Of a stretch of 59,503 nt of DNA, positions 710 to 23,087 are shown piece after piece. The notes under the pieces are model-generated. The model was not told the DNA's origin. It did not search any database and saw nothing but the letters and a program-made list of their open reading frames with translations. The position numbers and the translations under genes were made by a program. This DNA comes from Rhodospirillaceae bacterium SYSU D60007 (GTDB lineage Bacteria; Pseudomonadota; Alphaproteobacteria; Reyranellales; Reyranellaceae), in NCBI GenBank assembly GCA_003574685.1, contig QOCQ01000028.1:1-59503 (forward strand). The letters run 5' to 3'. Position 1 is the stretch's first letter. Each line of letters begins with the position of its first letter.

Positions 710-3640
710 CTAGGGATCGAAGCGTACGACGAGGGACTGGTACCGGCCCAGGGCGTCCAAGGCGTTGCCCAGCGGGCCGGCAGCGCGGCGCAGGCCCTTC
801 AGCCCGATGATGGCCCTGACCATCTCCCGCAGAACCGGCGTGGCGACATCCACACCCCGGCAGGCGTGCGGGCCATACCCGAAGTGCAGGTAGTCGCCCT
901 CATTGCGCCCGAAGTCGACGCGATCGGGATCGGTGAACACCCGGTGATCGAACATCGCCGTCTTCAGCAACACGGCCACCATACTGCCCTTGCGTACCGG
1001 CCGGGACCCCGTCTTCAGGTAAGTGTCTGCCGCGCAGCGCCTGAAGAGGATGGGCGCCACGGGATCGAAGCGCAGGACCTCCAGGATGGCCGCATCCAGC
1101 GCGGCGTCATTGCCGGCGGCATCTCGCACCTTCTCCAGGATGTCGGGATGATCGAGCAGGTAGTTGAGGACGTTGGGCAGCGCCTCGACGAGCGTGCCGC
1201 CCATAGCGGTCACGATCTCGGCCAGCAGCAGGCGCACCACGACGCGAAAGCGGTCTTCCTTCAGCGTATACTTGCCCGGATTGAGTCCTGCCAGGCAGCC
1301 CAGCAGTGTCTGATTGGACGGCTTCGCCTCTGCCACCAGCCGATCGAGGTGCCGGAAAAACTCCGCGGTGGTTCGCGCCGCCAGGGCCGCGAGCTCGCGG
1401 GCGTTGGCGATGTTGATGAAGACCTCCGCGAAAGCGATCTGGATCCATGCCGCCAGGGTGGCATAGGGCACGTCCTGGGGCGGCATGTGCGGCAGCACCT
1501 CCAGCCAGTCGGGCGGCACCTGCGAGATATCGAGCTTGTTGAAGAGCGACGCCACGTAGGTGGGCGACGTCCACTCCGGTCCCTTGACGCCATGACAGTG
1601 GCGCGCGACGACCATGGGCACCACCACCGACACGTCGCGCACGACATCAAGTTTGCCGACCGGTCCGTGCCGCGCCAGCAGGGCTTGCATCGCCTGCGCG
1701 GCCACGGTACCGGCAGGGCGCCCGCCGTATTGGCGCGCCGCGTCCTGCCAGATTCGTACCCTTGGCCCGTACTCAGGCTCGCTGACCGGCGCACCCAGCA
1801 TCAACCACTCGCCGCCGGTCATGCGCCGGATACGGTCGTTCTGGTCGCGTGAGGAGAATGCCTGGGCGTTGCCAAGCACCTTTTTCACGAATCTGTGGCG
1901 GCCAACCAGAACAATACCGTCGCTCTCAATCCACGGATCGCTGCCGGGCGGCAGCAACTCCTTGCGGCCAAGTTCGAACAAGGCCTCGGGGTCGATCACC
2001 CGCGGCGTTTCATCGATGGCCGGGTTGTCTTTCTCCTTGGCCGAGTCGAACGTGTCGCCGGCCGCCATCGCGCGCAGCGCCGGCATCGAGGGCATAAAGA
2101 AGTAGTCGCCGCCACGGGTGGTCACGAATCGCGGCAGGTGCGTGTGGGGTGCCGGGCGGTCCGGAACCGCAAAACTGTCCTGCAGATCGCCGCTGTTGGC
2201 GCCGGTGAGCGGGCAGCGCGCCGTGCCAGCGTGACCGACGGCCTCGCCGCCATTGAGCCAGCGCGCCTGCACGAACTCGAACTGCTGATCCAGCCGCGAA
2301 CAGAGCGCGATGAACAGCAAGCCGCGCCTCCCAGCATCATCGGCAGCGCCATACGGAAGGAACTTGCCGCCGTAGCTGATGGAGCGGCGCCATAGCCGAT
2401 GCCGCCGCGCCTCGTCGCGGTTGTTGCTGTCGCGCGGATTGACACGGCGGGCATGTGCGCCCAGCGGACAGCGCCGGCCGCTTGCGTCCGCATCCTGGTA
2501 GCCGAAATCATTGAGCGCATGCCTGGGCAACTCGGCCGTTGGCAGATCGGGCGAGGCCACCAGCGAGGTACCGTTGGGCCAGCGGCCCACCATCTGCGCG
2601 GCCAGCCGTGAATCGCGGCCGGCTGTCTTGTCGTGCTGTGCCAGGAAGCGGCGGAAACCGATGACGTCCTGCTCCAGCTTGCGGAACACCAGGTACGTGC
2701 CGTCCTTGCGCAGGGTTTCGTTGGACGGATCGCGTTGTGTGATCCCGTCCTCGTCGGGGCGTCCCAGCAACAACTCGCCCAGTGCGATCGGATCCCATGT
2801 TCCGCCGGGCCGCGCGGTACCGCCGCCCGGAAGTGGCACCCCCAGGCCGGCATCGGCGAAGGGCTGGCTGACGCCGTCGCGGAAGCCGAAATGCTCGATG
2901 CGGTACGGGCCATCCACTGTGCCGGGATGCATGATCTTCTCGCCCACCTCCACGTGCAGCACGGCAAACCCGAACACGTCTGCCAGCGCGCGCGCCAAAA
3001 TTGTGCTCAACAGAAAACCAGCCATGGGGACGGATTTGAAGCGACTCAGCGGACCGACCACGGGGCCATCTGCGTCAAGGCCCTTGTCCGTCGAAGGCGA
3101 CCGCACCACAAGCGACAGCAGTCCATGGACCTTGCGGTTGCCGAGCCAACCATCCCAGCGCTCGGGCGCCGACTCGCCGAAGTCACCCAGCCGCCCCGCT
3201 CGTGCCGCCATGCCGTCGCAAAAGACCTCGGGGAAGCTTGCCAATGTCGCCTCGTTGACCTGCAGCTCCTTCAGGCCCGTCCAGGTGAATGCCAGGTTCA
3301 CGCTGAAGGGTGGCGGGATACGCGGACCTTTGAGTACGTGCACGTCGGCCTCGGACCAGATCCGCCGTTCTTCCTTCTTCAACTTGAGAAAATCGTCGAT
3401 CCAATCGTTGCGATCCTTGTTCTCGGGCGCGGAACCGGCTCTGGCTGCAGGGATGACCCCGTCCGGCGGATCGACCAGAAGGCGCACAAACTCCCTGAAA
3501 AAGGAGACGTTTGTGACTCGGAAGAACAGATGCAGCGCCACTTCCGGGTTCATGCTGCGCAGCACGTTGGACTGAACGTGCTGGTGGTCCAGCGCGTTGT
3601 CGGACGCCACCGCCAGATTCTCACTCCGGGTCGCTGGCAT
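710..3640 (-). CDS. DyP-type peroxidase / cytochrome P450 fusion protein
   Basis: A 976-residue two-domain haem protein. The N-terminal half (about 20-520) is a dye-decolourising peroxidase. It has the GxxDG motif in FGFRDGVSQP (Asp255 catalytic), the segment GTYLVFRKLEQDV, and CPLGAHARRVNPR, where His396 should be the proximal haem ligand. The C-terminal half (about 540-976) is a P450: K-helix ExxR at Glu854-Arg857 and the haem loop FGYGPHACRG with Cys927. Both haem centres look intact. I chose the ATG at 3640 because AAGGAGG lies just upstream; a longer frame to 3733 would run further into the preceding gene. It overlaps that gene by 20 bases, so the two are likely translationally coupled. 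No signal peptide is seen, so it is probably cytoplasmic. The substrate is unknown. Confidence 0.88.
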   Translation of the reverse strand: MPATRSENLAVASDNALDHQHVQSNVLRSMNPEVALHLFFRVTNVSFFREFVRLLVDPPDGVIPAARAGSAPENKDRNDWIDDFLKLKKEERRIWSEADVHVLKGPRIPPPFSVNLAFTWTGLKELQVNEATLASFPEVFCDGMAARAGRLGDFGESAPERWDGWLGNRKVHGLLSLVVRSPSTDKGLDADGPVVGPLSRFKSVPMAGFLLSTILARALADVFGFAVLHVEVGEKIMHPGTVDGPYRIEHFGFRDGVSQPFADAGLGVPLPGGGTARPGGTWDPIALGELLLGRPDEDGITQRDPSNETLRKDGTYLVFRKLEQDVIGFRRFLAQHDKTAGRDSRLAAQMVGRWPNGTSLVASPDLPTAELPRHALNDFGYQDADASGRRCPLGAHARRVNPRDSNNRDEARRHRLWRRSISYGGKFLPYGAADDAGRRGLLFIALCSRLDQQFEFVQARWLNGGEAVGHAGTARCPLTGANSGDLQDSFAVPDRPAPHTHLPRFVTTRGGDYFFMPSMPALRAMAAGDTFDSAKEKDNPAIDETPRVIDPEALFELGRKELLPPGSDPWIESDGIVLVGRHRFVKKVLGNAQAFSSRDQNDRIRRMTGGEWLMLGAPVSEPEYGPRVRIWQDAARQYGGRPAGTVAAQAMQALLARHGPVGKLDVVRDVSVVVPMVVARHCHGVKGPEWTSPTYVASLFNKLDISQVPPDWLEVLPHMPPQDVPYATLAAWIQIAFAEVFINIANARELAALAARTTAEFFRHLDRLVAEAKPSNQTLLGCLAGLNPGKYTLKEDRFRVVVRLLLAEIVTAMGGTLVEALPNVLNYLLDHPDILEKVRDAAGNDAALDAAILEVLRFDPVAPILFRRCAADTYLKTGSRPVRKGSMVAVLLKTAMFDHRVFTDPDRVDFGRNEGDYLHFGYGPHACRGVDVATPVLREMVRAIIGLKGLRRAAGPLGNALDALGRYQSLVVRFDP

Positions 3641-4361
3641 AGGTCCCGCCCTCCTTCGGGAAATCGCCGGGATAGACGCTGTTCTCCGCCAGGAACCGGT
3701 CGAGCAGGCGGGCGACATCGTCGATGGTGGCACCGTCGGGGCGCCGCGTGCGCGCGATCAGCCGATCGAAGGCGCGTTTGAAGCGATCGAGCTGGCGGAT
3801 GCGCCCGACCGTCAGCTCGGGATAAGCGGCGTAGAACGCATGTGTCGGAATCTGGTGGCGCCTGGCGTAGTCCCAGAACGCCTCGAAGTTGCGCGCGCCG
3901 CCGGGCGGCCAATCCTCGCAATTGCCCCAGATGCGATCGACGTCCTCGCCGAGAAAGACCGAGAACTCCCGCAAGTAGTCCTTGATGTCGCCGTCAAAGT
4001 TCGACGTGAAGAACAGCCACGAGCGGCAGGTGTCGCGCGCAGGTGGCTCGACCTCGCTGTAGTGGAGATATTGCGCCGGCCGCAGGATCAGCCAGCGCGC
4101 GAAGTGGATGGTGGGAAGCTGGCCGATCGGCGTCGGGATGCCGCGCTCGACGCGGCGCTGCACCGACTCCAGGGCACCCCACAGACGCTGCTCGTAGGTG
4201 CGCCCCTCCCCCGCGATGCGGCCGGGCCTGACGGGCGTCAACAGGGTGACCTCGCTGACGCGGCCGATCGTCCTGGATCGGGCCCGCCTCGGCTTCTCCC
4301 CTGCTGGCCCGTGCGACCAGATGCCTGCGCCTGCCAACAGGCCAAGGTCCGACTGTCTCAT
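3621..4361 (-). CDS. Conserved hypothetical protein, companion of the DyP-P450 fusion
   Basis: A 246-residue protein I cannot assign to a named family. Segments such as HFARWLIL, YLHYSEVE and WLFFTSNFDGDIKDYL look like the strand-helix pattern of dimeric alpha-beta barrels, the fold shared by DyP and chlorite-dismutase proteins. A distant relationship to the adjacent peroxidase domain is therefore possible, but this is inference. The C-terminal part is rich in Arg and Asp and has no obvious catalytic motif. I placed the start at the ATG at 4361 because GGGGGAG precedes it by 6 bases; an in-frame ATG at 4436 has no such support. It is the first gene of the minus-strand group and diverges from the patatin gene across 212 bases. 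Confidence 0.6.
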   Translation of the reverse strand: MRQSDLGLLAGAGIWSHGPAGEKPRRARSRTIGRVSEVTLLTPVRPGRIAGEGRTYEQRLWGALESVQRRVERGIPTPIGQLPTIHFARWLILRPAQYLHYSEVEPPARDTCRSWLFFTSNFDGDIKDYLREFSVFLGEDVDRIWGNCEDWPPGGARNFEAFWDYARRHQIPTHAFYAAYPELTVGRIRQLDRFKRAFDRLIARTRRPDGATIDDVARLLDRFLAENSVYPGDFPKEGGTYASDPE

Positions 4362-4573
4362 CCTCCCCTCCCCCAAGGCGCGGCGACAGATCGTGAGCCG
4401 ATCTTCCGCCCTGCTCCGATCCAAGTCAAACCGCACCCGGCAACAGACCGATCACAAGCAGCGATGGCATAGAGCCAGGCCGTGACACCCGCCGGTGCCC
4501 GGGCGTGACGGCGCCGTGACATCGAACTGTGCGCGATGCGATAGTCTCGCCGCCCAGAAGGGGGGAGCCACCA

Positions 4574-5905
4574 ATGAAAGCCGTGATCGCGTTGATGGCG
4601 CTGGCGCTGTTGTCTGCCTGCGGCGAGCCGCGTCCGGCAACGCAACAGGGCAGTGTCTGCCACCAGGTCGCAACCGTCGGCTATGTGCCCTATCCCTGGC
4701 CTGACATCCTGCGCTCACCAGCGGCGATGTTGCGATCGGCGGCACCCCGCCAGGCCGTCGAGGTGCAGCTCCCGGCCGCGCACAACGACTTTCGCGAGGG
4801 CCTGGCGCGGCTCCACAGCGGGCGCATGCGCGGACCTGAACCGCTGCGGGTCCTCGCCGTGTCGGCCGGCGGCAGTTGGGGCGCCTTCTCCCTCGGGTTC
4901 ATCGACGGATGGGGACACAACCAGCGCGATCCGCGCCCGTCATTCGAGATCGTCACGGGCGTCAGCACCGGCGCCATGATTGCGCCCATCGCCTTCCTCG
5001 AGGAGGCAGCGCGCGTGCCTTGTCCGGGCGGCGTGGAATGTCCGCCCGGACTTGTCGGCTTGCGCGAAATCTACGCCAGGCTGACTGACGAGCAGGTAGT
5101 GGAGAAACGCCCGCTTCTCAGCCTGCTGTCCGCCACTTCCGTCTACGGCACCGCGGGCCTGCGCAAGAAGGTCGAGTCCATCGTCAGCCCTGAACTCGTG
5201 GCGCGTATCGCGGCTGAACACAAAAGGGGGCGCTCGCTGCTGGTGATGGCCGTCAATCTCGACAGCGGTATGCCGGAGCCATTCAACCTGACGGAGATCG
5301 CGGCCGGCAGTGGATCCACCGACGCGCGGCGCCAGCGCATCATCGACATCATCATGGCATCGGCCGCGACCCCGATCGCCTTCCCGCCGGTATTCATCGC
5401 TGGCAATATGTACGTGGACGGCGGCGCACGCAGGCACGTCTTCCTGCTCGACCAGGTCGTGACGGCGATCATGGGCGATCCACAGGGCCAGCCGCAGGCG
5501 GGCCTGCAACGCTACACCATCAAACCCGGCGCCCGGCCGGTTGACCTCTCGATCGTGGTCAGTGGCGACATGAAGGTCATGCCTGATTGCACCGGCAAGG
5601 ACGGCCTCGACCTGCTGTCCATTGCGAAACGCACGATGTCGGTGAGCACCGACCAGCTCCTGCGCGACAGCGTCGAGGTGCTGCTGCTCAAGGTTGGTCA
5701 GTCCGGCGGCCGCGCGCGCTTCATCGATGCTGCGAGCCTGGTGAACTATCCCGCCCCTGACGGTGCCCCGTTGCCGGGCGGCGGCCCGTGCACGGTGCCG
5801 CTCCCCGGCGGGGAGATCTTCAACACCCGGCTACAGGCCTGCCTGGACAAGCACGGCTACAGGCTGGGGCAAAGCGACAAGATCCCCTGGCGAACGACGC
5901 CATGA
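4574..5905 (+). CDS. Patatin-like phospholipase lipoprotein
   Basis: A 443-residue predicted lipoprotein with a patatin-type serine hydrolase fold. The signal peptide ends in the lipobox LLSAC with Cys16. Then come the glycine-rich oxyanion loop (GGSWG, 99-103), the nucleophile elbow GVSTG with Ser131, and the catalytic Asp in DGG (282-284). The Ser/Asp dyad is complete. Patatins hydrolyse acyl ester bonds of membrane lipids; the lipoprotein signal suggests attachment to the periplasmic side of a membrane. The ATG at 4574 follows AAGGGGGGAG and directly begins the signal peptide; an upstream in-frame start at 4529 would spoil it. It is transcribed away from the DyP-P450 group and could share its regulation. 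Confidence 0.88.
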   Translation: MKAVIALMALALLSACGEPRPATQQGSVCHQVATVGYVPYPWPDILRSPAAMLRSAAPRQAVEVQLPAAHNDFREGLARLHSGRMRGPEPLRVLAVSAGGSWGAFSLGFIDGWGHNQRDPRPSFEIVTGVSTGAMIAPIAFLEEAARVPCPGGVECPPGLVGLREIYARLTDEQVVEKRPLLSLLSATSVYGTAGLRKKVESIVSPELVARIAAEHKRGRSLLVMAVNLDSGMPEPFNLTEIAAGSGSTDARRQRIIDIIMASAATPIAFPPVFIAGNMYVDGGARRHVFLLDQVVTAIMGDPQGQPQAGLQRYTIKPGARPVDLSIVVSGDMKVMPDCTGKDGLDLLSIAKRTMSVSTDQLLRDSVEVLLLKVGQSGGRARFIDAASLVNYPAPDGAPLPGGGPCTVPLPGGEIFNTRLQACLDKHGYRLGQSDKIPWRTTP

Positions 5906-11868: not shown

Positions 11869-12945
11869 TTACGGCGCGGGGAAGCGCAGGATCGTGGTCG
11901 AGCGGAACGTCGCGCCGCGCCGCAGCACCGTCGAGGGGAACGCGGGCTGGTTCGGGGAGTCCGGGAAGTGCTGGGTCTCCAGGCAGAAGCCGTAGCGGCG
12001 ATGATAGCGGCGGTCGTCGTAGCCAACGTCGCTGCCGTCGAGGAAGTTGCCGCTGTAGAACTGCACGCCGGGCTCGGTGGTCCACACTTCCATCACCCGC
12101 CTTGAAGCAGGCTCGCGCACGCGGGCGGCGAGGTGCGGCGCGCCGCCGGCGCCCTCCAGCACGAAGTTATGGTCGTAGCCGCCGGCCATCACAAGCTGCG
12201 GATCGGGCGCGTCAATGCGCGCGCCGATCGGCATCGGCTGGCGGAAGTCCAGCGGCGTCCCCGCGACGGAGCGCAACTCGCCAGTGGGAATGAGCTCCGC
12301 GTCAACCGGCGTGAAGCGCTCCGCCGCGATCATCACCTCGTGCCCCAGCACGTCACCCGCACCGGCGCCGGCGAGGTTGAAGTAGGCATGGTTGCTGAGA
12401 TTGACGACGGTGGGCCGGTCGGTCGTCGCGCTGTAGTCAATGCGCAAGCCATTCGCCTCCAGCGCGTACCGGACGCGCACGTCGAGCGTGCCGGGAAAGC
12501 CCTGGTCGCCGTCCGGGCTGACGTGCCGCAACACGATCGCCGGCGTCTCGCCCTCTTCCCGCGATTCGATCTGCCAGGGCACGCGATCGAATCCGACCGG
12601 ACCACCGTGCAGGGCGTGTCCACCGCTATTGGCCGGAATGCAGTACGCAATGCCGTCAAGCGTGAACCGGCCATGGGCGATCCGGTTGGCGTAGCGGCCG
12701 ACGATGCCGCCGATATGCGCGCCCGACCGCAGGTAGCCACCGAGCGTGTCGAAGCCCAGCACGACATTCGCCGGACGGCCCGCCGCGTCCGGCACCTGCA
12801 GCGCGGCCAGAGTCGCACCCCAGGTCAGCACCGTGACCTCAAGGCCGCTGGCGCCGCGCAGCGTGATCCGCTCCACATCGCGGCCGTCGGCCAGCTTTCC
12901 GAATGGCACGCACGTGATACGATTCGTCACCACTATCCCTCGCAC
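11869..12945 (-). CDS. galM: Aldose 1-epimerase (mutarotase)
   Basis: A 358-residue galactose mutarotase family enzyme that interconverts alpha and beta anomers of aldohexoses. Family motifs: TWGATLAALQVPD, VVLGFDTLGGY, GGIVGRYANRIAHGRF (active-site Asn-Arg), ANSGGHALHGG, LSNHAYFNLAG (catalytic His) and GVQFYSGNFLDG; the late Glu lies in CLETQHFPDSPNQP. The frame opens with a GTG at 12945, but further GTGs at 12933 and 12930 fit better with the GAGGG just upstream, so the true start may be a few codons in. It is divergent from a META-domain lipoprotein across only about 20 bases. Confidence 0.93.
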   Translation of the reverse strand: MRGIVVTNRITCVPFGKLADGRDVERITLRGASGLEVTVLTWGATLAALQVPDAAGRPANVVLGFDTLGGYLRSGAHIGGIVGRYANRIAHGRFTLDGIAYCIPANSGGHALHGGPVGFDRVPWQIESREEGETPAIVLRHVSPDGDQGFPGTLDVRVRYALEANGLRIDYSATTDRPTVVNLSNHAYFNLAGAGAGDVLGHEVMIAAERFTPVDAELIPTGELRSVAGTPLDFRQPMPIGARIDAPDPQLVMAGGYDHNFVLEGAGGAPHLAARVREPASRRVMEVWTTEPGVQFYSGNFLDGSDVGYDDRRYHRRYGFCLETQHFPDSPNQPAFPSTVLRRGATFRSTTILRFPAP

Positions 12946-12965
12946 ACCCGGATCCGGAGCGCAGC

Positions 12966-13406
12966 ATGATCAAGCCGGCCGCCGTCGCCCTTGCCGCCGT
13001 CGCCCTTCTGGCGGCGTGCAGCCCGTCCGGCGGCGCGCATGACGGCAGGGGCACCCTCGCCGGCTCGTCCTGGCGCCTCGTCGAGCTGCAATCGAACGAC
13101 GATACCATTGGTGTCGTGCGCCCGCGCGATCCGTCAAGATACACGATGACCCTCGGCGCGGACGGCAGGGCCTCCCTGCGGCTGGACTGCAATCGCGCCG
13201 GCGGCCAGTGGCGCTCGCCCACGCCCGGCGAGATCACCTTCACGCCGCTGGCGATGACCCGCGCCGCCTGCCCCGAGGGGTCACTCGACACCCGCGTGGC
13301 CCGCGAACTGGAGTACGTGCGCAGCTACCTGCGGGAAGGCGACCGGCTGCGGCTGACCCTGATGGCCGACGGCGGCAGCCAGCTCTGGACGCGCGCGGCA
13401 CCGTAG
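12966..13406 (+). CDS. META-domain lipoprotein
   Basis: A 146-residue predicted lipoprotein. The N-terminus has a short charged start, a hydrophobic core and a lipobox LLAAC (Cys18). The rest matches the META/HslJ pattern: SSWRLVEL, MTLGADGRASLRLDCNRAGG, FTPLAMTRAACPEGSLD and a final LRLTLMADGGSQLWTR. Such proteins are envelope-associated and of unclear function; HslJ is linked to heat and novobiocin tolerance in E. coli. The ATG at 12966 is preceded by CCGGAGCG. Confidence 0.82.
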   Translation: MIKPAAVALAAVALLAACSPSGGAHDGRGTLAGSSWRLVELQSNDDTIGVVRPRDPSRYTMTLGADGRASLRLDCNRAGGQWRSPTPGEITFTPLAMTRAACPEGSLDTRVARELEYVRSYLREGDRLRLTLMADGGSQLWTRAAP

Positions 13407-14244: not shown

Positions 14245-15057
14245 ATGACCATGACAACCGGCAATGGACGCAAAGGCAGACAGCCTGCAATGATCACCCC
14301 AGCGGTCGTGTCGCCAGAGGCGTGGGAGGCGGCCCGTCAGCTGCTCCTCGTGAAGGAGAAGGCACACACGCGCGCCCGTGACGCGCTCGCCGCAGAGCGC
14401 CGGCGAATGCCGTGGATGGCCGTGGAAAGGGCGTATGCGTTCGAGGGACCCGCGGGCAAAGCCAGCCTGTCCGATCTGTTCGACGGCCGGCGTCAACTGA
14501 TCGTCTATCGCGCCTTTTTCGAGCCAGGCGTGTTCGGCTGGCCCGACCACGCCTGCCGGGGCTGCTCCATGCTTGCCGACCAGGTCGCCCACGTCGCTCA
14601 TCTGAACGCCCGCGACACCACGCTCGTGTTCGTCTCCCGTGCCCCTCAGGCGGACGTTGCGCGGTTGAAGGCGCGGATGGGCTGGGAAATGCCCTGGTTC
14701 ACCCTGACGGACAGCTTCGACGCGGACTTCGGCGTGGGCGAGTGGCACGGGACCAACGTCTTCTACCGCGACGGCGATCGCGTGTTCCGCACCTACTTCA
14801 TCAATAACCGCGGCGACGAGCAGATGGGAAATACCTGGAACTACCTCGACATCACGCCGCTGGGCCGGCAGGAGCTGTGGGAGGATTCGCCCGAGGGCTA
14901 TCCCCAGACCCCGCCCTACAAGTGGTGGAACTGGCACGACAGCTACGTCCCGGATGCACCGCCCGACAAGAAGGGTCGAAGTGTCGGACGCCGGGGAGGC
15001 GGCTTTCCGGAAACGACGCTGGAGCACAAAGCCATGAAGCGAGGTTCAGAACTTTGA
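14245..15057 (+). CDS. DUF899 family thioredoxin-like protein
   Basis: A 270-residue protein of the DUF899 family, which has a thioredoxin-like fold. Typical pieces are a helical N-terminus (residues about 10-50) with EKAHTRARDALAAERRRMPW, LSDLFDGRRQLIVYRAFF, the CRGCSML centre in place of a classical CxxC, LVFVSRAPQAD and WHGTNVFYRDGDRVFRTY. It is probably a cytoplasmic redox protein; no reaction is established for the family that I can state. I chose the ATG at 14245 after GGAGG; a TTG three codons earlier is less likely. Its 3' end overlaps the convergent neighbour by 12 bases. Confidence 0.85.
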   Translation: MTMTTGNGRKGRQPAMITPAVVSPEAWEAARQLLLVKEKAHTRARDALAAERRRMPWMAVERAYAFEGPAGKASLSDLFDGRRQLIVYRAFFEPGVFGWPDHACRGCSMLADQVAHVAHLNARDTTLVFVSRAPQADVARLKARMGWEMPWFTLTDSFDADFGVGEWHGTNVFYRDGDRVFRTYFINNRGDEQMGNTWNYLDITPLGRQELWEDSPEGYPQTPPYKWWNWHDSYVPDAPPDKKGRSVGRRGGGFPETTLEHKAMKRGSEL

Positions 15058-15801
15058 GAACAGGCTGGTGAAGCCGTAGAGCTTGTCGGTGATGCCATTG
15101 GTGCGGAGCGCGTGCCAGTAGGTGGCGACGTTGATCGAGATGACCGGCTTGTCCAGCCAGCGCTCGGCCTCGTCGGCGATGCGGGCCATCGGCAGGTTGG
15201 CGCCGAACTGCACGATGGCCTCGACGTCCGGGCCGTCGATGGCCTTGATGGCGTTGATCATGTCGCGCGCGGTGACCACTGAATACGTGGTCGGGCTCTT
15301 GCCGCGCATGTGGTTGTAGCGGACGATCTCGTAGCCCGCGGCGCCGAACACGCCCACCATCTTCGGCTCGATGCTGGGGAAGTAGGGCTCCATGATGGCG
15401 ATGCGGCGCCTGACGCCGTGCAGCTTCAGCGCCGCAAAGACCGCGTCGGTGGCGATGGCCACCGGGATGTCATGGCCCGCGACCTTGCGGATGCGCTGCT
15501 TCAGCTCCTCGCCCCATTCGGCATTGCCGCCCCACACCGAAAGCGCGGAAATGCCGAGGATGAAGGCGTTGGGCCGGCAATCAATCACGCTCGCCACCGC
15601 CGGTTCCAGTGCGGCGTCGATCAGGCGGATGGATTCGTCAAAGTCCTCGTTGGTGCGGATCTGCAGATCGGGGATCACCATGCGGCCGAGATGATTGGTG
15701 ACGCCGGGCGGGCGCATGTCGTCATACTCCGGCTGCACGACGGTATTGGTGGACGGCGTGGTGATGCCGAAGGCCATGCGCCAGGCGAGATAGTCACGCA
15801 T
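15046..15801 (-). CDS. Maleate isomerase / arylmalonate decarboxylase family protein lacking both cysteines
   Basis: A 251-residue Asp/Glu-racemase-superfamily protein. It keeps the family frame (FGITTPSTNTVVQPEY at the N-terminus, RRIAIMEPY in the middle, KPVISINVATYWHALR near the C-terminus). In maleate isomerase and arylmalonate decarboxylase a catalytic cysteine lies after the ILGISALS-like strand, and the usual SCTN-type motif is here FGANLP. I see no cysteine at either place; the only one is in IDCRPN. The chemistry may therefore differ. It follows the TRAP transporter genes on the same strand, separated by a family B repeat, so its substrate may be what that transporter imports. Confidence 0.75.
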   Translation of the reverse strand: MRDYLAWRMAFGITTPSTNTVVQPEYDDMRPPGVTNHLGRMVIPDLQIRTNEDFDESIRLIDAALEPAVASVIDCRPNAFILGISALSVWGGNAEWGEELKQRIRKVAGHDIPVAIATDAVFAALKLHGVRRRIAIMEPYFPSIEPKMVGVFGAAGYEIVRYNHMRGKSPTTYSVVTARDMINAIKAIDGPDVEAIVQFGANLPMARIADEAERWLDKPVISINVATYWHALRTNGITDKLYGFTSLFSKF

Positions 15802-15981: not shown

Positions 15982-17283
15982 TCAGCCGCGCATCGTGGTG
16001 GGCAGCCAGAGCGCGATTTCGGGCCAGAAGCAGAGCAGCAGGATGACCAGCAGCATCAGCCCGACATAGGGGGCCGAGCCGATCGCGACCTCGGAGAATT
16101 TGTGCCCGCCGGAGATGCCGTGGATGGTGAAGAGGTTGAGGCCCACCGGCGGCGTAATCTGCCCCAGCTCGATCAGCACGGTGAGGATGACGCCGAACCA
16201 GATCAGGTCGAAGCCGAACACCTTCACCACCGGCAGCAGCACCGGCAGCGTCATGTAGATCATCGAGATGCCATCGACGAAGCAGCCGAGGATCACGTAC
16301 AGCACGACCAGCGCCAGGAAGAACGTCCACTTGCCGAGGCCGGCTCCCATGATCCATTCGCTGACCGCGCGGCTGACTCCGGAGTATGTGAGCGCCGTCG
16401 ACAGGATCTGTGCGCCGATGATGATCAGCGCCACCATGCAGGTAGTCTTGACGGTCGACATCAGCGCTTCGCTGAAGATGCGGCGGTTGAAGCGGCGGTA
16501 GCCGACCGCCAGCACGATGGCACCGGCGGCGCCCAGCGCCGAGGCCTCGGTCGGCGTGGCAATGCCGGCATAGATGCTGCCCAGCACCAGCACCAGCAGG
16601 CCCAGCACCGGGAAGACGTGCAGTGCCTCGCCGGTTTGCCGCTTGCCCGCCGCGGCGTCGCGTGGCGGCGCATAGTGCGGCTTGGCCAGCAGCAGGCAGG
16701 CGATGAAGATCATGAAGATCACAGCCATCAGCAGGCCCGGCAGCACGCCGGCGATGAACAGCCGGGCGATCGACTCTTCGACCAGGGCGCCGTACAGCAC
16801 CATGATGATGCTGGGCGGGATCAGGATGCCCAGCGTGCCGCCCGCGGCCAGCGAGCCGAACACGGTGCGCGGTTCGTAGCCGCGCGACAGCATCTCGGGA
16901 ATCGCCACGGTGCCGACAGTGGCCGCGGTGGCGACGCTCGATCCAGAGACGGCGGAGAACACCGCGCAGCTTGCGATGTTGGCGTGCAGCAGCCCGCCCG
17001 GCAGACGGCCGAGCAGCACCACGACGCCGCGATAGAAATAGCTGCTGACTCCGCTGCGCAGGATGACCTCGCCCATCAGCAGGAACATCGGCACGGCCAC
17101 GAGGATGTAGCTGTTGGCGTTGTTCCAGATCACCGAGGACAGCGCCGTCAGCCCCAGCACGCCCTTGCTAAGCCACAGGACAAGCACGCCGCAGATGCCG
17201 AGCGCGAAGGCGGTCCACTGCCCCGCCATCAGCATGACGGCAAGGCTCGCGACCAGCACCAGGGTCAGAAGTTCAAGGCTCAT
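15982..17283 (-). CDS. TRAP transporter large permease (DctM)
   Basis: A 433-residue integral membrane protein of the DctM family with about 12 hydrophobic segments. Signatures include FLLMGEVILRSGVS, CAVFSAVSGSSVATAATVGTVAIPEM, GSLAAGGTLGILIPPSIIMVLYG, the GIATPTEASALGA motif, and ELGQITPPVGLNLF near the C-terminus. It forms the sodium-driven channel subunit that works with DctQ and the periplasmic binding protein. I start at the ATG at 17283; the longer frame to 17415 reads through a family A repeat. That repeat separates it from dctQ, which may weaken transcription or coordinate it differently. Confidence 0.93.
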   Translation of the reverse strand: MSLELLTLVLVASLAVMLMAGQWTAFALGICGVLVLWLSKGVLGLTALSSVIWNNANSYILVAVPMFLLMGEVILRSGVSSYFYRGVVVLLGRLPGGLLHANIASCAVFSAVSGSSVATAATVGTVAIPEMLSRGYEPRTVFGSLAAGGTLGILIPPSIIMVLYGALVEESIARLFIAGVLPGLLMAVIFMIFIACLLLAKPHYAPPRDAAAGKRQTGEALHVFPVLGLLVLVLGSIYAGIATPTEASALGAAGAIVLAVGYRRFNRRIFSEALMSTVKTTCMVALIIIGAQILSTALTYSGVSRAVSEWIMGAGLGKWTFFLALVVLYVILGCFVDGISMIYMTLPVLLPVVKVFGFDLIWFGVILTVLIELGQITPPVGLNLFTIHGISGGHKFSEVAIGSAPYVGLMLLVILLLCFWPEIALWLPTTMRG

Positions 17284-17309
17284 GGACTCTATGTCAGCCA
17301 GGTCATTCC

Positions 17310-17435
17310 CCTTCCCCCGGAGGGGGAAGGTGCCCCGAAGGGGCGGAAGGGGGATGGTGCAACACCTGCGGCGTCGTGCCCGTTGAGGCATCCCCCTTCC
17401 GGCGCTGCGCGCCACCTTCCCCCTCCGGGGGAAGG
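17310..17435. repeat. Interspersed inverted-repeat element, family A (copy 3)
   Basis: Terminal CCTTCCCCC...GGGGGAAGG palindromes as at 192, but the inner arms are swapped: the CCCCGAAGGGG hairpin is on the left and the GGCGCTGCGCGCC hairpin on the right, so this copy is in the opposite orientation to copies 1 and 2. It lies within the TRAP operon between the large and small permease genes. Confidence 0.87.
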
Positions 17436-17478: not shown

Positions 17479-17991
17479 TCAGGGGATGTGGCGGACGCGG
17501 GCGATGATCCAGGAGAGGAGCTGCAGCAGCAGGACGGCGCTGCCCAGCACCATCACCGATTGCGGGATCCATTCGGGCGTCTCGATCACCGACACCGCCC
17601 GCGTGTCATGGTTGAAGGCGTAGATCACGTGGCGGGTGCAGACCCAGAGCATGACAGCCGTGAAGACGAAGGCGGTCAGCACGATCAGCCAGCGAAGCGC
17701 CTGCCTGAGCGTGCCGGTCGCGCGGTCATACAGGATCTCCACGCGGATGAAGCCGCCTTCGCGCAACGCCCAGGCCAGGCCGAAGAAGATCGCGGCGGCG
17801 TTGAGATAGCCCGCGATCTCGTCAGTCACCAGCAGCGAGGCCTGGAACTGCCGCAGCACCGTCTCGGCACAGACGATCACCAGGATGGCGACGATGGAGA
17901 GGCCCGCCAGCACGCCGCAGAACTGCGCGACGCGTCCGACCCAGCGGTCGATCGCGCTGCCGGGCGGCGGGTTCTCCAGACTGTCCGTCAC
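17479..17991 (-). CDS. TRAP transporter small permease (DctQ)
   Basis: A 170-residue membrane protein with four hydrophobic helices, the usual size and layout of DctQ. The family's core pattern is visible in IVCAETVLRQFQASLLVTDEIAGYLNAAAIFFGLAWALREGGFIRVEIL. The start is a GTG at 17991 that overlaps the stop of the binding-protein gene (GTGA), giving translational coupling. A longer frame to 18057 lies inside that gene. Confidence 0.92.
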   Translation of the reverse strand: MTDSLENPPPGSAIDRWVGRVAQFCGVLAGLSIVAILVIVCAETVLRQFQASLLVTDEIAGYLNAAAIFFGLAWALREGGFIRVEILYDRATGTLRQALRWLIVLTAFVFTAVMLWVCTRHVIYAFNHDTRAVSVIETPEWIPQSVMVLGSAVLLLQLLSWIIARVRHIP

Positions 17992-18998
17992 TTGCCGAGC
18001 GCCGTGCGGACCTCCTTGAGCATGGCCGAGCCGCTTTCGCCATGTGAGGCCGCCCACTCCTCCCAGTAGGGCCGCATCATGGCGATGAGGGCGTCGATCT
18101 GCTCCTTGGGCGGCACGAAGAGGTCGACCTTGTGCTTCGTCTTGAGCGCTTCCATATCCCGCGCCTCGTCGCCGAGATTGGCGGCGCGGAAGCGCGGCGC
18201 ATAGTCCTTCGCCACGGCATCGAGCTTGGCGCGCAGATCGGCATCGAGCTTCTCGTAGGCGTCGAGGTTGACGATCGTATAGTCAGGGCCGCCGATATGG
18301 ATGTCGCCCAGCCAGCCCCATTCGACGAACTCGTACCACTTGGCGCCGATCACGTTGAAGGCCGCCGTCATGAATCCCTCGGCCACGCCGCGCTCCATCG
18401 CCACCGGCACCTCCGCCGTGGTCAGACTGACGGACGACGCGCCCAGCCGCTTCAGCATCTCGGCCTGCTTGCCGTCGGTGGAGCGGATCTTGCGGCCCTT
18501 GAAATCCTCCAGCGTGCGGATCGGCTTGCCGCGGCCGAACATGTTCTGCACCGGCCACGTATGATAGAAGAGGTTCTTCACGCCCGACTTCGCGAACAGC
18601 GGCGCCGTGTACTTGTCGATGATCGGCCAGACCTTCTCCAGCTCCTCGCCGCTGCGCACCAGGAAGGGCAGGCTGGTCATCGAGGAGAGCGGCAGGGCGC
18701 CGGAAATGAAGCCCTGGTAGGCCTCGGCAAGCTGCACCTGGCCGGCGCCCGCGACCTTCACCACCTCGGTGGCGCGGAACGGCAACTCGCCCGCCGGCCG
18801 CACGACGATCTCCAGCCTGCCGCCGGTCGCCTTCTTCACCTCCTCGGCGAACGCGTTGTAGCGCAGCGTGATCGGATGCGTGACGCCGGTCATGGCGTAC
18901 ATGTCCCACTTCGTTTTCGACTGCGCCAACGCATGGCCGCCCGATGCAGCGGCGCCGAGCACGCCCAGCACGACGGAACGCCTGTGAATCCGCTGCAT
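17988..18998 (-). CDS. TRAP transporter substrate-binding protein (DctP)
   Basis: A 336-residue periplasmic binding protein. It has an N-terminal export signal with an HRRSVVLG twin-arginine-like start and an ALAQS cleavage region near residue 25. The DctP core follows: WPIIDKYTAPLFAKSG, the GRKIRSTDGKQAEMLKRLGAS segment with the family Arg that salt-bridges carboxylate ligands, TTAEVPVAMERGVAEGF, and GPDYTIVNLDAYEKL. The ligand is probably an organic acid but cannot be named. The ATG at 18998 follows GGGAGG. It is the first gene of the TRAP operon and diverges from the UGSC selenoprotein gene. Confidence 0.92.
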   Translation of the reverse strand: MQRIHRRSVVLGVLGAAASGGHALAQSKTKWDMYAMTGVTHPITLRYNAFAEEVKKATGGRLEIVVRPAGELPFRATEVVKVAGAGQVQLAEAYQGFISGALPLSSMTSLPFLVRSGEELEKVWPIIDKYTAPLFAKSGVKNLFYHTWPVQNMFGRGKPIRTLEDFKGRKIRSTDGKQAEMLKRLGASSVSLTTAEVPVAMERGVAEGFMTAAFNVIGAKWYEFVEWGWLGDIHIGGPDYTIVNLDAYEKLDADLRAKLDAVAKDYAPRFRAANLGDEARDMEALKTKHKVDLFVPPKEQIDALIAMMRPYWEEWAASHGESGSAMLKEVRTALGK

Positions 18999-19075
18999 TT
19001 CGATCCTCCCTGCGCCATCCGGTGGCGATTTGCCGGCACCGTCCCATTCACGCCGCAACGCTGTCAATATCAACT

Positions 19076-19089: not shown

Positions 19090-19182
19090 CGAAACGCCGC
19101 CTTGCAAAAAACACGTCACGCGGATGCGCGCCGCGCGCTAGAGAAAGCGACGCGAAGCAATCAGGAATCGGAGGAAACGGCG

Positions 19183-20919
19183 ATGGCCCGTCGGAACAGC
19201 AGCGACTATGCCGTGGTCTGGCCGCGCAGCGCCAAGGCGGTGGACATCAAACCTCTCTCTCCGCGGCTGGATACGATTGACGGCAAGACGATTGCCTTCC
19301 TGTGGGACGATCTGTTCCGCGGCGACGAGATCTGGCCGATCCTCAAGCAGGAGCTCTCCAGCCGCTACAACGATGTAAACTTCATCGACCATGACGCGTT
19401 CGGCTCCACGCATGGCGACGAGGAGCATCGCGTGCTCGCCGAGTTGCCGGAGAAGATCCGGTCGATGAAGATCGACGCGGTCGTCTCCGGCATGGGGTGT
19501 TGAGGGAGCTGCACGCCCGCCGTGTTGCGGGTCAGCGCGATTGCCGAACAGGCCGGCGTGCCCACCTCCTCGCTGTGCTGCGAGGGTTTTCTGGGCCAGG
19601 CCAAGACGACCTCTGTGGGGCTGGGCTATCCCAACCTCGCGCTTGCCACCGTGCCGGGGCACGTCGACGTGCAGACCGCCGACGAGCTGCGCGCCAATGT
19701 GCTGGGCACCACGGTGGAGCACGTGATCCGCAACCTCACCGGCGAGATCGCGGCGGTGCAGGCTGTCGCCGATCCCGATCCGGACGAGATCGTGTTCGAA
19801 GGCAGCTTCGAGGAGGTCAACCGGCTGTTCCTGGAGAATGGCTGGAGCGATGGCCTGCCGATCGTGCCGCCGACCAAGGAGAAGGTCGCCGAGTTCCTTG
19901 CCTTCACCGATCTGCCGCCGGACCACGCCATCGGCAAGCTGCTGCCGGACAACCGGCTGGCCACGGTGTGGAACGTGGCCGTGAACGGCGTCATGGCGGG
20001 ATGCCGGCCGGAATACATGCCGATCCTGGTGGCGCTGGTCGAGGCGATGGCCGATCCGCAATACGGCGTCGAGCATTCCGGCAACACGCCAGGCGCCGAG
20101 ACCCTGATCGTGCTGAACGGGCCGCTGATCAGGGAGCTTCGCTTCAACTACGAGCAGGGCGCGCTGCGCGACGGCTTCCAGCCCAACACCTCGATCGGCC
20201 GGTTCTGGCGGCTTTACCTGCGCAACGTCGCGGGCTTCCTGCCGCACCAGAACGACAAGGGCACGTTCGGCAACACGTGGCGCGTGGTGCTGGCGGAGAA
20301 CGAGGACAGCCTCGCCCGGATGAAGTGGCCCACCATCGCTGCCGACATGGGCGCGCCGGCGGGCGAGAGCGCGGTCACGATCTCGCGCTTTACCGGTGGC
20401 AACGTCATCGTCTCGGTGTTCGGCGACAGCGCCGAGAAGGTCCTGCCCTATCTCGGCAACGCGCTGGTGACTCACACCGGCTGGGAGCTGGTGTTCACGG
20501 TCGGCATGGCGACGGGCACCTACCGGCCGCTGCTGGTGTTGAGCCCGCTGATTGCCGAGACCATCGCCAAAACGATGACCAAGCGTGACGTGCAGCACTG
20601 GCTCTACGAGAATGCGCGCATGCCGGCGCACCTCTTCGAGAAATATCTCTGGGGCTGGACCAACCTGGTGCCGGGCAAGCGCACGCTCAACGACTGGGCG
20701 CGCATGGGCAAGATCCCGAAGGTGTTCGCGGGCAATGACCCTAACCGGCTGGTGCCGGTGGTGACCAAGCCGGAGCACATCATGATCGCGGTCTCGGGCG
20801 ATCCCCTGCGCTCGAACTGTTATCTCTTCGTGCATAACGGCATGCTGGGCTTTCCCACGACGAAGACCGTGAAGCTGCCGCAGGGCTGGCGGAGCAAATT
20901 GCGCGACGCCCAGGCATGA
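19183..20919 (+). CDS. UGSC-family selenoprotein with fused C-terminal domain (UGA at 19501-19503 read as Sec)
   Basis: A 578-residue protein if the in-frame TGA at 19501-19503 is read as selenocysteine. The N-terminal domain (1-195) runs through the TGA as GMGC-U-GSCTP, with Sec107 and Cys110, exactly the motif that names the UGSC family; Sec-G-S-Cys is a likely redox centre. The reading frame is the same on both sides and the protein family continues without a break. A hairpin fits a bacterial SECIS at 19508-19536. A second domain (about 200-578; FLENGWSDGLPIVPPT, NAVMAGCRPEYMPI) resembles the whole of the next gene product. The ATG at 19183 follows GGAGG. Automatic callers would split this into two genes. 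It overlaps the next gene by 4 bases (ATGA). Function unknown. Confidence 0.88.
19508..19536 (+). promoter_or_regulatory. Candidate bacterial SECIS element of the UGSC gene
   Basis: Directly after the in-frame TGA, the RNA can fold as GCTG (19508-19511) with CAGC (19533-19536), a short internal bulge, then CCCGC (19516-19520) with GCGGG (19527-19531), and a six-base loop CGTGTT. The loop starts 18 bases after the UGA and has G at its second position, within the size and distance range known for SelB-binding bacterial SECIS hairpins. Confidence 0.7.
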
Positions 20920-22157
20920 AGGACGACGGCAGCCTGTGGATCGTGGTCCCCACGGGCCAGCAGGCTGCGGGCGGCTGGATCGACGACACGCTGAAGCAGC
21001 GCGCCATCGAGCAGGGCCAGGGCGCACGCGTGCCGCTGGCCGCCGACTTCCCGCGCCAGCGCGTCGAGGTGGTCCGTGGCCCAAGTGCCGAAGCGCGCCT
21101 TCAGGAGCTGTTCCTGCGACGCGGCTGGAGCGATGGCCTGCCCGTCGTGCCGCCCACCGTGGCGCGCGTGCGGGAAGCGCTTGCCTTCACGGACAGGGCG
21201 CCAACTGACGTGCTGGGCGAGGTCGAGCCGCTGAAGGGTCTCGCCACCGTCGAGAAGATCGCGGCCAACGCCGTCATGGCGGGCTGCCGGCCGGAGTACC
21301 TGCCGGTGGTGTTGGCGGCGGTCGAATGCGTGCTCGATCCGGCCTTCAACATGCGCGGCGTGCAGACCACCGACGAGAACGTGGCGCCGCTGCTGGTCGT
21401 GAATGGACCCGTGGCACGCGAGCTCGCCATCAACGGCGGCTTCGGCGTGCTGGGTCCGGGCTGGCAGGCCAACGCCACGATCGGGCGCGCCGTGCGGCTG
21501 GTGATGAACAACCTCGGCGGCGGCTGGCCGGGCGCCGTGAGCTTTGCAGGCCTGGGCCAACCCGGCCGCTACACGCTCTGCCTGGCAGAGAACGAGGCGC
21601 AGAGCCCGTGGGCGCCCCTGCATACTGAGGCCGGGCTGTCGGCTGACGCCAGTGCCGTCACCGTGACGCGCGCGGAGTCGGTGATGAACGTCACCGGCGG
21701 GCTGGCTGAAATCGCCAGCCTGATGGGCTCGGCGGCCTCGGGCTTCGGCATCTTGTGGAGCGGCCGGCCCACGGTGCTGATCGCACCCGCCGTCGCGACT
21801 GAGTGCGCGCGGCGCGGCATGGGCAAGGACGAAGTACGACGGTTCTTGTGGGAGCGCGGCCGCTGGCGGCGCGAGGACTGGCAGAACTCCTGGCTGACCG
21901 AACGCATCCTCGCCAACCGGCCCTGGCCTGACTGGGTGCAGGCCGCAGCCGCAACAGGCGACATCCCGCCGGCGCGTTCGCCGGATGATATCGTGCTGGT
22001 CGTGGCCGGCGGCGATATTCCGATCCCGCAGAATGCCTACTGCCCGTCATGGGGTTTTCCGCCGGCCTGCATCACGCGCGAGGTGCGCCTGCCGGCGGGC
22101 TGGACAACGCTGCTGGCGGATGCAAGGGAAGCCGCGGCAGGCCTGGTCGCAAGGTAG
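20916..22157 (+). CDS. Paralogue of the UGSC protein's C-terminal domain, function unknown
   Basis: A 413-residue protein that aligns by eye with residues about 205-578 of the upstream selenoprotein: FLRRGWSDGLPVVPPT, NAVMAGCRPEYLPVV, and the shared order of VVNGP, NATIGR and CLAEN segments. The cysteine in AGCRPEY is conserved in both and may be functional. It has an N-terminal extension of about 60 residues and no UGSC motif. Translation starts in the stop codon of the preceding gene (ATGA), so the two proteins are probably made together, possibly as partners. I know no characterised function for this domain. No signal peptide is visible. Confidence 0.78.
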   Translation: MKDDGSLWIVVPTGQQAAGGWIDDTLKQRAIEQGQGARVPLAADFPRQRVEVVRGPSAEARLQELFLRRGWSDGLPVVPPTVARVREALAFTDRAPTDVLGEVEPLKGLATVEKIAANAVMAGCRPEYLPVVLAAVECVLDPAFNMRGVQTTDENVAPLLVVNGPVARELAINGGFGVLGPGWQANATIGRAVRLVMNNLGGGWPGAVSFAGLGQPGRYTLCLAENEAQSPWAPLHTEAGLSADASAVTVTRAESVMNVTGGLAEIASLMGSAASGFGILWSGRPTVLIAPAVATECARRGMGKDEVRRFLWERGRWRREDWQNSWLTERILANRPWPDWVQAAAATGDIPPARSPDDIVLVVAGGDIPIPQNAYCPSWGFPPACITREVRLPAGWTTLLADAREAAAGLVAR

Positions 22158-22169
22158 GGATTTTCGGAC

Positions 22170-23087
22170 GTGGCAGGAACAAGCTTCGACATCGCGGTGA
22201 TCGGCGGCGGCATCGCCGGCCTCACGGCGGCCCATCACGCGGCGCTGGCGGGCGCTTCGGTGGTGCACTTCGTCGAGGATGGCCTGCCGGGCGGGCTGGT
22301 GATCAACGTCGGCGCGCTTGACGGCTGGCCGGCAGCAGGTCCTGTTGGCGGCGCGGAACTGGCGGCCGGCCTGATGGGCCAGAACGAGGAGCTGGGCGTT
22401 ACGCTGGTTCCCTCACGGATCGACAGGCTGGAAGGCGGCGCGACCAGGACGCTTCACGGTGCGGACGGCGTCTGGCGCGCGCGGCAAGTCATCCTCGCCA
22501 CGGGTGCGACACTGAAGACGCTGGACGTGCCGGGCGCAGAACGGCTGGCGGGGCGCGGCGTGTCGCAATGCGCGTGGTGCGACGGCGGCCTCTACCGCGA
22601 TGCCGATGTCGTGGTGGCAGGCGGCGGCGATTCGGCGCTGTCGGAGGCGCTGCATCTTGGCGCGTTCGCGCGCACCATAACGATCGTCACGCGCGGCGAG
22701 CGCTTCCGTGCGCGCAATCACTACGTCTCGCGCATCGCCAGCGATGAGCGGTATCACCTGCGATGGGCCAGCGAGATCGTCGAGGTTTCGGGCGCGGACG
22801 GAGTCGAAAGCGTGCGCGTGCGCGACCGCGAGTCCGGAACGCACGAGGACATCCCCTGCACGGGGCTGTTCGTGTTCGTGGGGCTGACTCCCAATGCCGG
22901 ACTCGCGGGCCCCGAAATTGCCCGCGACGCCGGCGGCTTCCTGGTCACGGATGCCAATTTCGAGGCGGCGGCGCCCGGCGTCTTCGCGATCGGCGCGGTG
23001 CGATCCGGCTACGGCGGCCGGCTCACCCAGGCCGTCGGCGAGGCCACGACCGCGGCCGAAATCGCGGCCGCCCGCTGCGAGAGCTGA
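22170..23087 (+). CDS. Thioredoxin-reductase-like FAD-dependent oxidoreductase
   Basis: A 305-residue two-dinucleotide-domain flavoprotein of the low-molecular-weight thioredoxin reductase type. FAD binding: IGGGIAGLTAAHHA (11-24) and a late GVFAIGAVR. The redox disulfide is CAWC (Cys134, Cys137), with Trp where the usual sequence is CATC. The second nucleotide site is VVAGGGDSALSEALHLG. The usual HRRxxxR NADPH phosphate-binding motif is replaced by TRGERFRA, so the electron donor may not be NADPH. It probably reduces the selenoprotein or a thiol partner encoded in the same operon. It starts at a GTG at 22170, 12 bases after the previous stop, with a weak ribosome site. Confidence 0.88.
   Translation: MAGTSFDIAVIGGGIAGLTAAHHAALAGASVVHFVEDGLPGGLVINVGALDGWPAAGPVGGAELAAGLMGQNEELGVTLVPSRIDRLEGGATRTLHGADGVWRARQVILATGATLKTLDVPGAERLAGRGVSQCAWCDGGLYRDADVVVAGGGDSALSEALHLGAFARTITIVTRGERFRARNHYVSRIASDERYHLRWASEIVEVSGADGVESVRVRDRESGTHEDIPCTGLFVFVGLTPNAGLAGPEIARDAGGFLVTDANFEAAAPGVFAIGAVRSGYGGRLTQAVGEATTAAEIAAARCES

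Follow-up and report, generated by a model that had tools for sequence, protein, structure and literature searches.

A UGSC-family selenoprotein fused to a recurrent partner domain, with a possible reductase operon around it

The fusion gene, its UGA codon and the selenocysteine machinery

The window, which is the whole analysed stretch of 59,503 nucleotides, carries a gene at 19183..20919 on the forward strand, with a Shine-Dalgarno-like GGAGGAAA (19170..19177, same strand) ahead of its ATG. When the in-frame TGA at 19501..19503 is translated as U, the frame reads C106-U107-G-S-C110, selenocysteine (Sec) being residue 107, and the next stop is found at 20917-20919. The product has 578 residues and a predicted mass of 63.5 kDa. 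The preliminary description had joined the two same-phase frames and the TGA between them into one UGSC-family protein. The family search agreed with this, as a single PF24696 (UGSC) domain with a predicted Rossmann/flavodoxin-like alpha/beta fold matched both sides of the TGA, with 92 bits against a gathering score of 25. Because this domain covers residues 11-186 (19213..19740, forward strand), the TGA lies inside a single domain. The equivalog model NF041046 was missed (47.6 vs 125 bits), indicating that the UGSC domain of the fusion belongs to a divergent branch of the family; two of the six stand-alone UGSC copies scanned passed that cut-off.

A true stop, arising from a nonsense mutation or a sequencing error, or two separate proteins produced from the two frames, could give the same arrangement. 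The window is GC-rich and TGA-split frames are frequent in it by chance, as evidenced by 75 frame pairs in which both members stay open for at least 90 codons, 74 of them besides the fusion. We compared the locus with relatives retrieved by a pattern scan of one genome per species (84,980 species), which gave 28 loci. One of these (L038) starts downstream of the TGA site. The other 27 cover the site, and all 27 have TGA at the homologous codon; together with the translation, this bears out the placement of the TGA exactly at the U of U-G-S-C. No further stop was seen in 25 of the 27, and the frame breaks further on in L040 and L042. The closest relatives carry the names Reyranella, Vineibacter, Enhydrobacter and Rhodospirillales and are mostly metagenome-assembled genomes (MAGs); from them the genome of the window is judged to be Reyranella-like. 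Reyranella soli and Vineibacter terrae are represented by loci L023 and L041. Since both the TGA and the stem described below are conserved among relatives, a chance origin of the TGA is ruled out. The retention of the TGA in every relative covering it, the one domain that crosses it and the Sec machinery of the genome make a true stop very improbable. From this sequence evidence, the codon at 19501-19503 almost certainly specifies selenocysteine, and the gene encodes a selenoprotein of the UGSC family. Gene callers that take UGA as a stop split such genes, and the enzyme is therefore easily missed.

Two of the related loci bear labels that look wrong. The UGSC operons of L029 (labelled Klebsiella pneumoniae) and L032 (a MAG labelled Bordetella parapertussis) resemble those in records of Betaproteobacteria.

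Downstream of the UGA, a SECIS-like stem-loop, GCCCGC-CGUGUU-GCGGGU, occupies 19515..19532 of the forward strand (bases 12-29 after the UGA), with a looser lower stem in which 19508-19511 pairs with 19533-19536. The loop (19521-19526) begins at the 18th base past the TGA, which is where a hairpin with a CGTGTT loop had been placed from the sequence. Conservation was assessed after aligning the window with the DNA of the 27 loci (28 sequences in all, 27 distinct rows). The six-pair core stem was paired in 98.8% of the cells, and five of its six pairs, CCCGC/GCGGG, were invariant. The pair below these was A-U, G-U or G-C in 25 of the 27 distinct rows, and the lower stem was less conserved, with 73% of cells paired. 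The window hairpin folded no better than its shuffles (z 0.45 and -0.30), and hairpin stability was thus rejected as proof of recoding. Among the four relatives folded, L028 (z -6.40) and L035 (-2.12) were clearly beyond the shuffles, and L026 and L030 were not (about -1.1, the weakest of the four being -1.06). An Rfam search of 19300-19800 returned no SECIS family and one sRNA match at chance level. These bases could also be kept constant by selection on the encoded protein, so that the hairpin is supporting and not decisive evidence. Judged by its conservation, the element directly 3' of the UGA qualifies as a putative bacterial SECIS hairpin.

The genome of the window (5.3 Mb, 58 contigs, 99.8% complete) encodes SelB on contig C7 (449.7 bits, cut-off 242). 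A tRNA-Sec adjoins it (75.6 bits, cut-off 47 of the Rfam model), and ARAGORN agrees; the Rfam model is not fully specific, as two further sites of this genome score above its cut-off (50.3 and 48.8 bits) and so do 5 of 14 control genomes. The region around SelB also contains genes for SelA and for SelD fused to an oxidoreductase, both scoring over their cut-offs, along with formate dehydrogenase genes. The recoding claim of the preliminary description had hinged on selB and tRNA-Sec; selA, selB, selD and tRNA-Sec are all found in the genome.

SelB was found in 35 of the 40 other UGSC genomes (34 above the cut-off). Among the five without SelB, the U site is Cys in two (G143 and G277), the UGSC match of two others (G690 and G722) lacks TGA, and one (G408, 77% complete) has TGA in UGSC. 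SelB was found in G617, yet its sole UGSC match is without TGA. Overall, 94 of the 99 UGSC matches contain one TGA, counted anywhere within the match. When the U site itself was checked at 37 loci, TGA was seen in 22 and Cys in three rows (two genomes), and 12 fell outside the pattern used, of which L063 and L070 have TGA. This pattern of SelB against TGA or Cys indicates that Sec use tracks SelB closely, not perfectly. In 5 of the 40 other genomes searched, SelB and a UGSC gene are no more than 7.3 kb apart, and at L059 both SelB and SelA adjoin the UGSC operon. At L028, a thioredoxin-reductase-like gene lies upstream of the UGSC fusion between two SelB-type genes (1-1320 and 3067-5022), as though the operon carried a SelB copy along with it. 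The UGSC relative of G277 (L055/L052, contig C6, about 12789-13246), with Cys at U, has an in-frame TGA about 30 codons on and looks decayed or misassembled.

The partner domain and the neighbouring genes

The second part of the fusion, at about residues 194-578 (19762..20916, forward strand), contains a conserved Cys274. We refer to it as the partner domain. As had been noticed earlier, it is repeated in the next gene; the identity is 32%. This second gene (gene 2; 20916..22157, forward strand) is Sec-free, and its start overlaps the stop of the fusion (ATGA). A UGSC domain fused to an extra domain named 'Unknown_1' is already mentioned in the passages found of the 2008 Global Ocean Sampling (GOS) study (PMC2398784), and the partner domain is probably the same. 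Gene 2 stands beside the fusion at 25 of 27 fusion loci, the exceptions being L022 and L039; a separate gene 2 was without match at L022, L038 and L039.

The pairing of the two domains was examined in a class sample of 381 genomes, using the partner-domain profile at E up to 1e-6 and PF24696 at E up to 0.001. Each was found in 38 genomes, and the 38 were identical. Among 398 genomes of the phylum, the fusion profile and PF24696 picked the identical five. Both are co-occurrence counts among genomes that share families. On the level of single genes, 79 of 99 UGSC matches lay within 500 bases of a partner match (fused copies included), all 79 on the same strand and with a median gap of 58 bases. 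The partner scoring in the class sample covered mostly five candidate genes per genome. Of the 20 UGSC matches that had no partner nearby, 17 fall in genomes where five partner matches were recorded, and G454 and G678 account for the remaining three. From these comparisons, the partner domain seems to accompany UGSC obligatorily.

We compared 18 diverse partner domains with Pfam and NCBIfam. No model was matched by more than one of them (best E 0.036), and PrdA and GrdE models were not among the matches. The structure predicted for gene 2 (pLDDT 84.1) gave weak matches in a structure search, none at E 0.001 and with an rmsd above 11 for the best hits. Identification of the partner domain through the libraries and the PDB was thus rejected, as the matches were weak and scattered. 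One Cys is kept in 17 of the 18 partner domains, and two further Cys columns are kept in 14 and 6 of the 18; the second Cys column is Val in the fusion form. A thioredoxin-like domain precedes the partner domain at L060 (Pfam thioredoxin, E 0.0008, under the cut-off), and a weaker one precedes it at L059 (best E 0.059, another model).

Downstream of gene 2, a thioredoxin-reductase-like (TrxR-like) flavoprotein with a CAWC motif is encoded at 22170..23087 on the forward strand; it scores under the TIGR01292 cut-off. The strict pattern C-A-x-C-D-G-G occurs at five of the nine loci scanned, the window having CAWCDGG. A TrxR-like gene was found at 22 of the 28 related loci. It was not found at L029, L031, L039 and L038, and the sequences of L017 and L030 end too early to judge. 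L029 has a different pyridine nucleotide-disulphide oxidoreductase downstream. L038 begins within the partner domain, and neither gene 2 nor a TrxR-like gene was found in the 6 kb downstream of it; L021, on another contig of the same MAG, has both.

On the reverse strand, the fusion is flanked by a TRAP transporter, comprising the solute-binding protein DctP (17988..19003), DctQ (17479..18057) and DctM (15982..17340), followed by an arylmalonate decarboxylase/EutA-like protein (15046..15801). DctP-type genes were seen at 13 of 29 loci and the EutA-like gene at 6 of 29, counting the window and taking flanks of up to 6 kb in the relatives. The next gene downstream of the TrxR-like gene, an amidohydrolase (PF04909; 23211..24320, forward strand), had no match at any of the 28 related loci and is probably outside the UGSC system. 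A DUF899 protein (PF05988; 14236-15057) adjoins the EutA-like gene and was likewise unmatched at the 28 related loci.

Fold and kinship of the UGSC domain

Eleven UGSC domains were scanned against 18,950 NCBIfam models. In seven of them (the window, L062, L066, L028, L033, L039 and L025), a model of the GrdB/PrdB group was the only or best further match, over the Sec site and with E from 0.0014 to 0.061; five of these seven are of the fusion type and mutually related. The remaining four had no NCBIfam match beyond the UGSC family's own. L039 gave two unrelated matches besides (E 0.14 and 0.16). In Pfam at E up to 10, the UGSC domain of the window was without a GRDB match, and its other match was an unrelated enolase-type model (MR_MLE_C, E 0.0083). 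The cut-offs of TIGR01917, TIGR01918, TIGR04483, GrdF and GrdH were all missed by UGSC, with 10-18 bits against 65-800.

We next compared the two families as profiles. GRDB-family matches were found in 8 of the 398 genomes of the phylum (L072-L079). The GRDB alignment held seven of these eight proteins, that from the window's own genome (L075) being dropped because its frame ends before the Cys site; all seven are of the Cys type, with PNCPVCHQ or PNCPICHQ. The alignment of 16 UGSC domains left out the G277 relative on account of its internal TGA. Using hhalign, the U-G-S-C of UGSC was aligned on the C-P-V-C of GRDB, with a score of 34.75, an E of 2.4e-4 and a probability of 44%. The best of 150 column shuffles reached 26.0, the reversed template 11.7 and the partner domain 20.1. 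Subsets of UGSC alone gave E 0.022 (fusion type) and 0.012 (stand-alone) against GRDB. These results suggest that UGSC is likely a remote relative of the glycine and proline reductase selenoproteins GrdB and PrdB. Like UGSC, the GrdB/PrdB proteins (PF07355, TIGR01918, TIGR04483) place Sec or Cys in a UxxC between a strand and a helix. They belong to dithiol-fed enzymes, and the neighbours of UGSC suggest the same for it. In contrast, UGSC is under every family cut-off tested, and its partner domain showed no likeness to PrdA/GrdE in the library scans. By sequence, UGSC appears to work like GrdB/PrdB but not to be a member of that family.

In the structure that AlphaFold predicts for the fusion (pLDDT 85.3, pTM 0.87), Sec sits in the loop from strand 99-105 to helix 110-123, within a domain of five strand-helix units, which we read as a predicted Rossmann- or flavodoxin-like fold. 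A structure search with the whole model gave matches such as MetH, azoreductase and quinone reductase, at low TM-scores and none at E 0.001 or better, and thioredoxin was absent among the 50 matches listed. A sequence search of solved structures gave no credible relative of the fusion (best E 0.021). Thioredoxin-like selenoproteins have the UxxC motif and a TrxR-like neighbour in common with the UGSC fusion. They differ from it in the predicted order of secondary structure, and UGSC had no thioredoxin-family match in the scans. A thioredoxin fold for UGSC was rejected on these two grounds.

With the UGSC-containing selenoproteins (PF24696, NF041046; GOS 2008), the fusion shares the Sec-containing UGSC motif, the full-length domain and the SECIS-like hairpin. 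It differs from stand-alone UGSC around the motif, reading CUGSCTPAVLR where the six aligned copies have DUGSC or DCGSC and then HD.

A proposed reductase and its alternatives

In D-proline reductase, a dithiol is the reductant for the cleavage of a C-N bond, and Sec and a pyruvoyl group are carried by different proteins; this enzyme is said not to use thioredoxin, and glycine reductase does use it (PMC10298544). UGSC, the partner domain and the TrxR-like protein resemble the layout of these reductases, and we therefore propose that the locus encodes a reductase that depends on selenocysteine, is fed by a dithiol and acts on a small molecule imported by the cell. As a whole and with its mechanism included, this proposal could fall either way. 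The recoding step is its firmest part: SelB would almost certainly deliver Sec-tRNA at this UGA (19501) with the aid of the downstream hairpin. UGSC would be the catalytic half of a two-part enzyme and the partner domain the other half, the two being joined in one chain here and encoded by neighbouring genes elsewhere. The partner domain may bind an imported small acid or amine, with the substrate site located in it or shared with it. In the way put forward for glycine and D-proline reductase, the Sec selenolate would attack a carbon and expel a leaving group; Cys110 would resolve the Se intermediate to give a selenenylsulfide. The TrxR-like flavoprotein, directly or via a dithiol carrier, would then restore the selenolate with NAD(P)H. 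For such an electron supply speak the TrxR-like gene at 22 loci, the other disulfide reductase at L029 and the thioredoxin-like domains at L060 and, more weakly, L059. Comparison among genomes shows the UGSC-partner pairing and the neighbours and argues strongly for the recoding; we infer the chemistry, the roles of Cys110 and Cys274, the electron route and the substrate. Against the reductase count the four loci without a TrxR-like match, the three without a match to a separate gene 2, the UGSC scores far under the GrdB/PrdB cut-offs, the absence of PrdA/GrdE likeness from the library scans of the partner domain, and the statement that D-proline reductase does not use thioredoxin. The hosts are probably aerobic, which also counts against it, as the known reductases are anaerobic.

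Two other functions were weighed. UGSC might be a general thiol-disulfide or peroxide oxidoreductase with an antioxidant role, as suggested by the 2008 view of a likely thioredoxin-like fold. UxxC is a common redox motif and is taken as such in the passages found of PMC2398784, and TrxR-like and thioredoxin-like neighbours fit this role. The predicted strand and helix order, the structure matches listed and the family scans are not those of a thioredoxin, and a metabolic enzyme is the better fit for a constant partner, transporter neighbours and as many as eight copies in a genome, so that we regard the antioxidant role as doubtful. Alternatively, the partner domain could itself be the enzyme, for instance a hydro-lyase or a cyclic amide hydrolase, and UGSC merely its reducing or activating subunit. 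The gene-2 model weakly matches Fe-S fumarate hydratase (E 0.017) and the Toblerone-fold cyclic amide hydrolases (E 0.06), hydantoinase A or B lies near three loci, one of which also has an Asp/Glu/hydantoin racemase, and the conserved Cys columns of the partner domain may form an Fe-S site in the stand-alone forms. Set against this are the Val in the second Cys column of the fusion form and the quality of the structure matches given above. We consider it unlikely that the partner domain is the enzyme in this sense.

If the reductase is accepted, UGSC and its partner may, more tentatively, constitute a third and widespread class of reductases with selenocysteine, alongside the glycine and D-proline enzymes. 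This class would probably occur in aerobic bacteria. Every paralog would cleave a different imported substrate by reduction, drawing its electrons from a dedicated enzyme that resembles thioredoxin reductase, and the window would represent the one-chain form of the class.

The preliminary description held that UGSC-type selenoproteins have no established function, and the literature passages found record none. Our search took in the open literature, and the passages found in it contain no link of UGSC to glycine or proline reductase. They do show that the UGSC family and the fusion are already in print, and the present gene adds a member. What appears to be new is the partner domain as a seemingly obligate companion of UGSC, the probable remote relation of UGSC to GrdB/PrdB in place of the thioredoxin likeness assumed in 2008, and an operon that adds a second partner-domain gene and a TrxR-like flavoprotein beside a TRAP transporter. 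A Sec domain joined to a near-constant partner suggests a substrate-specific reducing enzyme in a group long without a function, and the constant partner, the GrdB/PrdB likeness and the neighbouring reductase make the question of function directly testable.

A hydantoin-type substrate is a lead only, because the Hydantoinase_B cluster was seen solely at L026, L039 and L041. An M81 metallopeptidase (MlrC) lies a few kb downstream of the fusion at L033, L034, L036 and L037, the family having been checked in Pfam at L034. Several UGSC copies per genome, three in that of the window and up to eight in another, fit substrate-specific enzymes, and the paralogs within one genome may serve different substrates. 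In the genome of the window, the two other UGSC loci (L058:6758-8581 and L071:5547-8084) have partner-domain genes of their own, and the surroundings of the three copies are the TRAP transporter described here, an aromatic amino acid lyase (contig C34) and an ABC transporter (contig C12).
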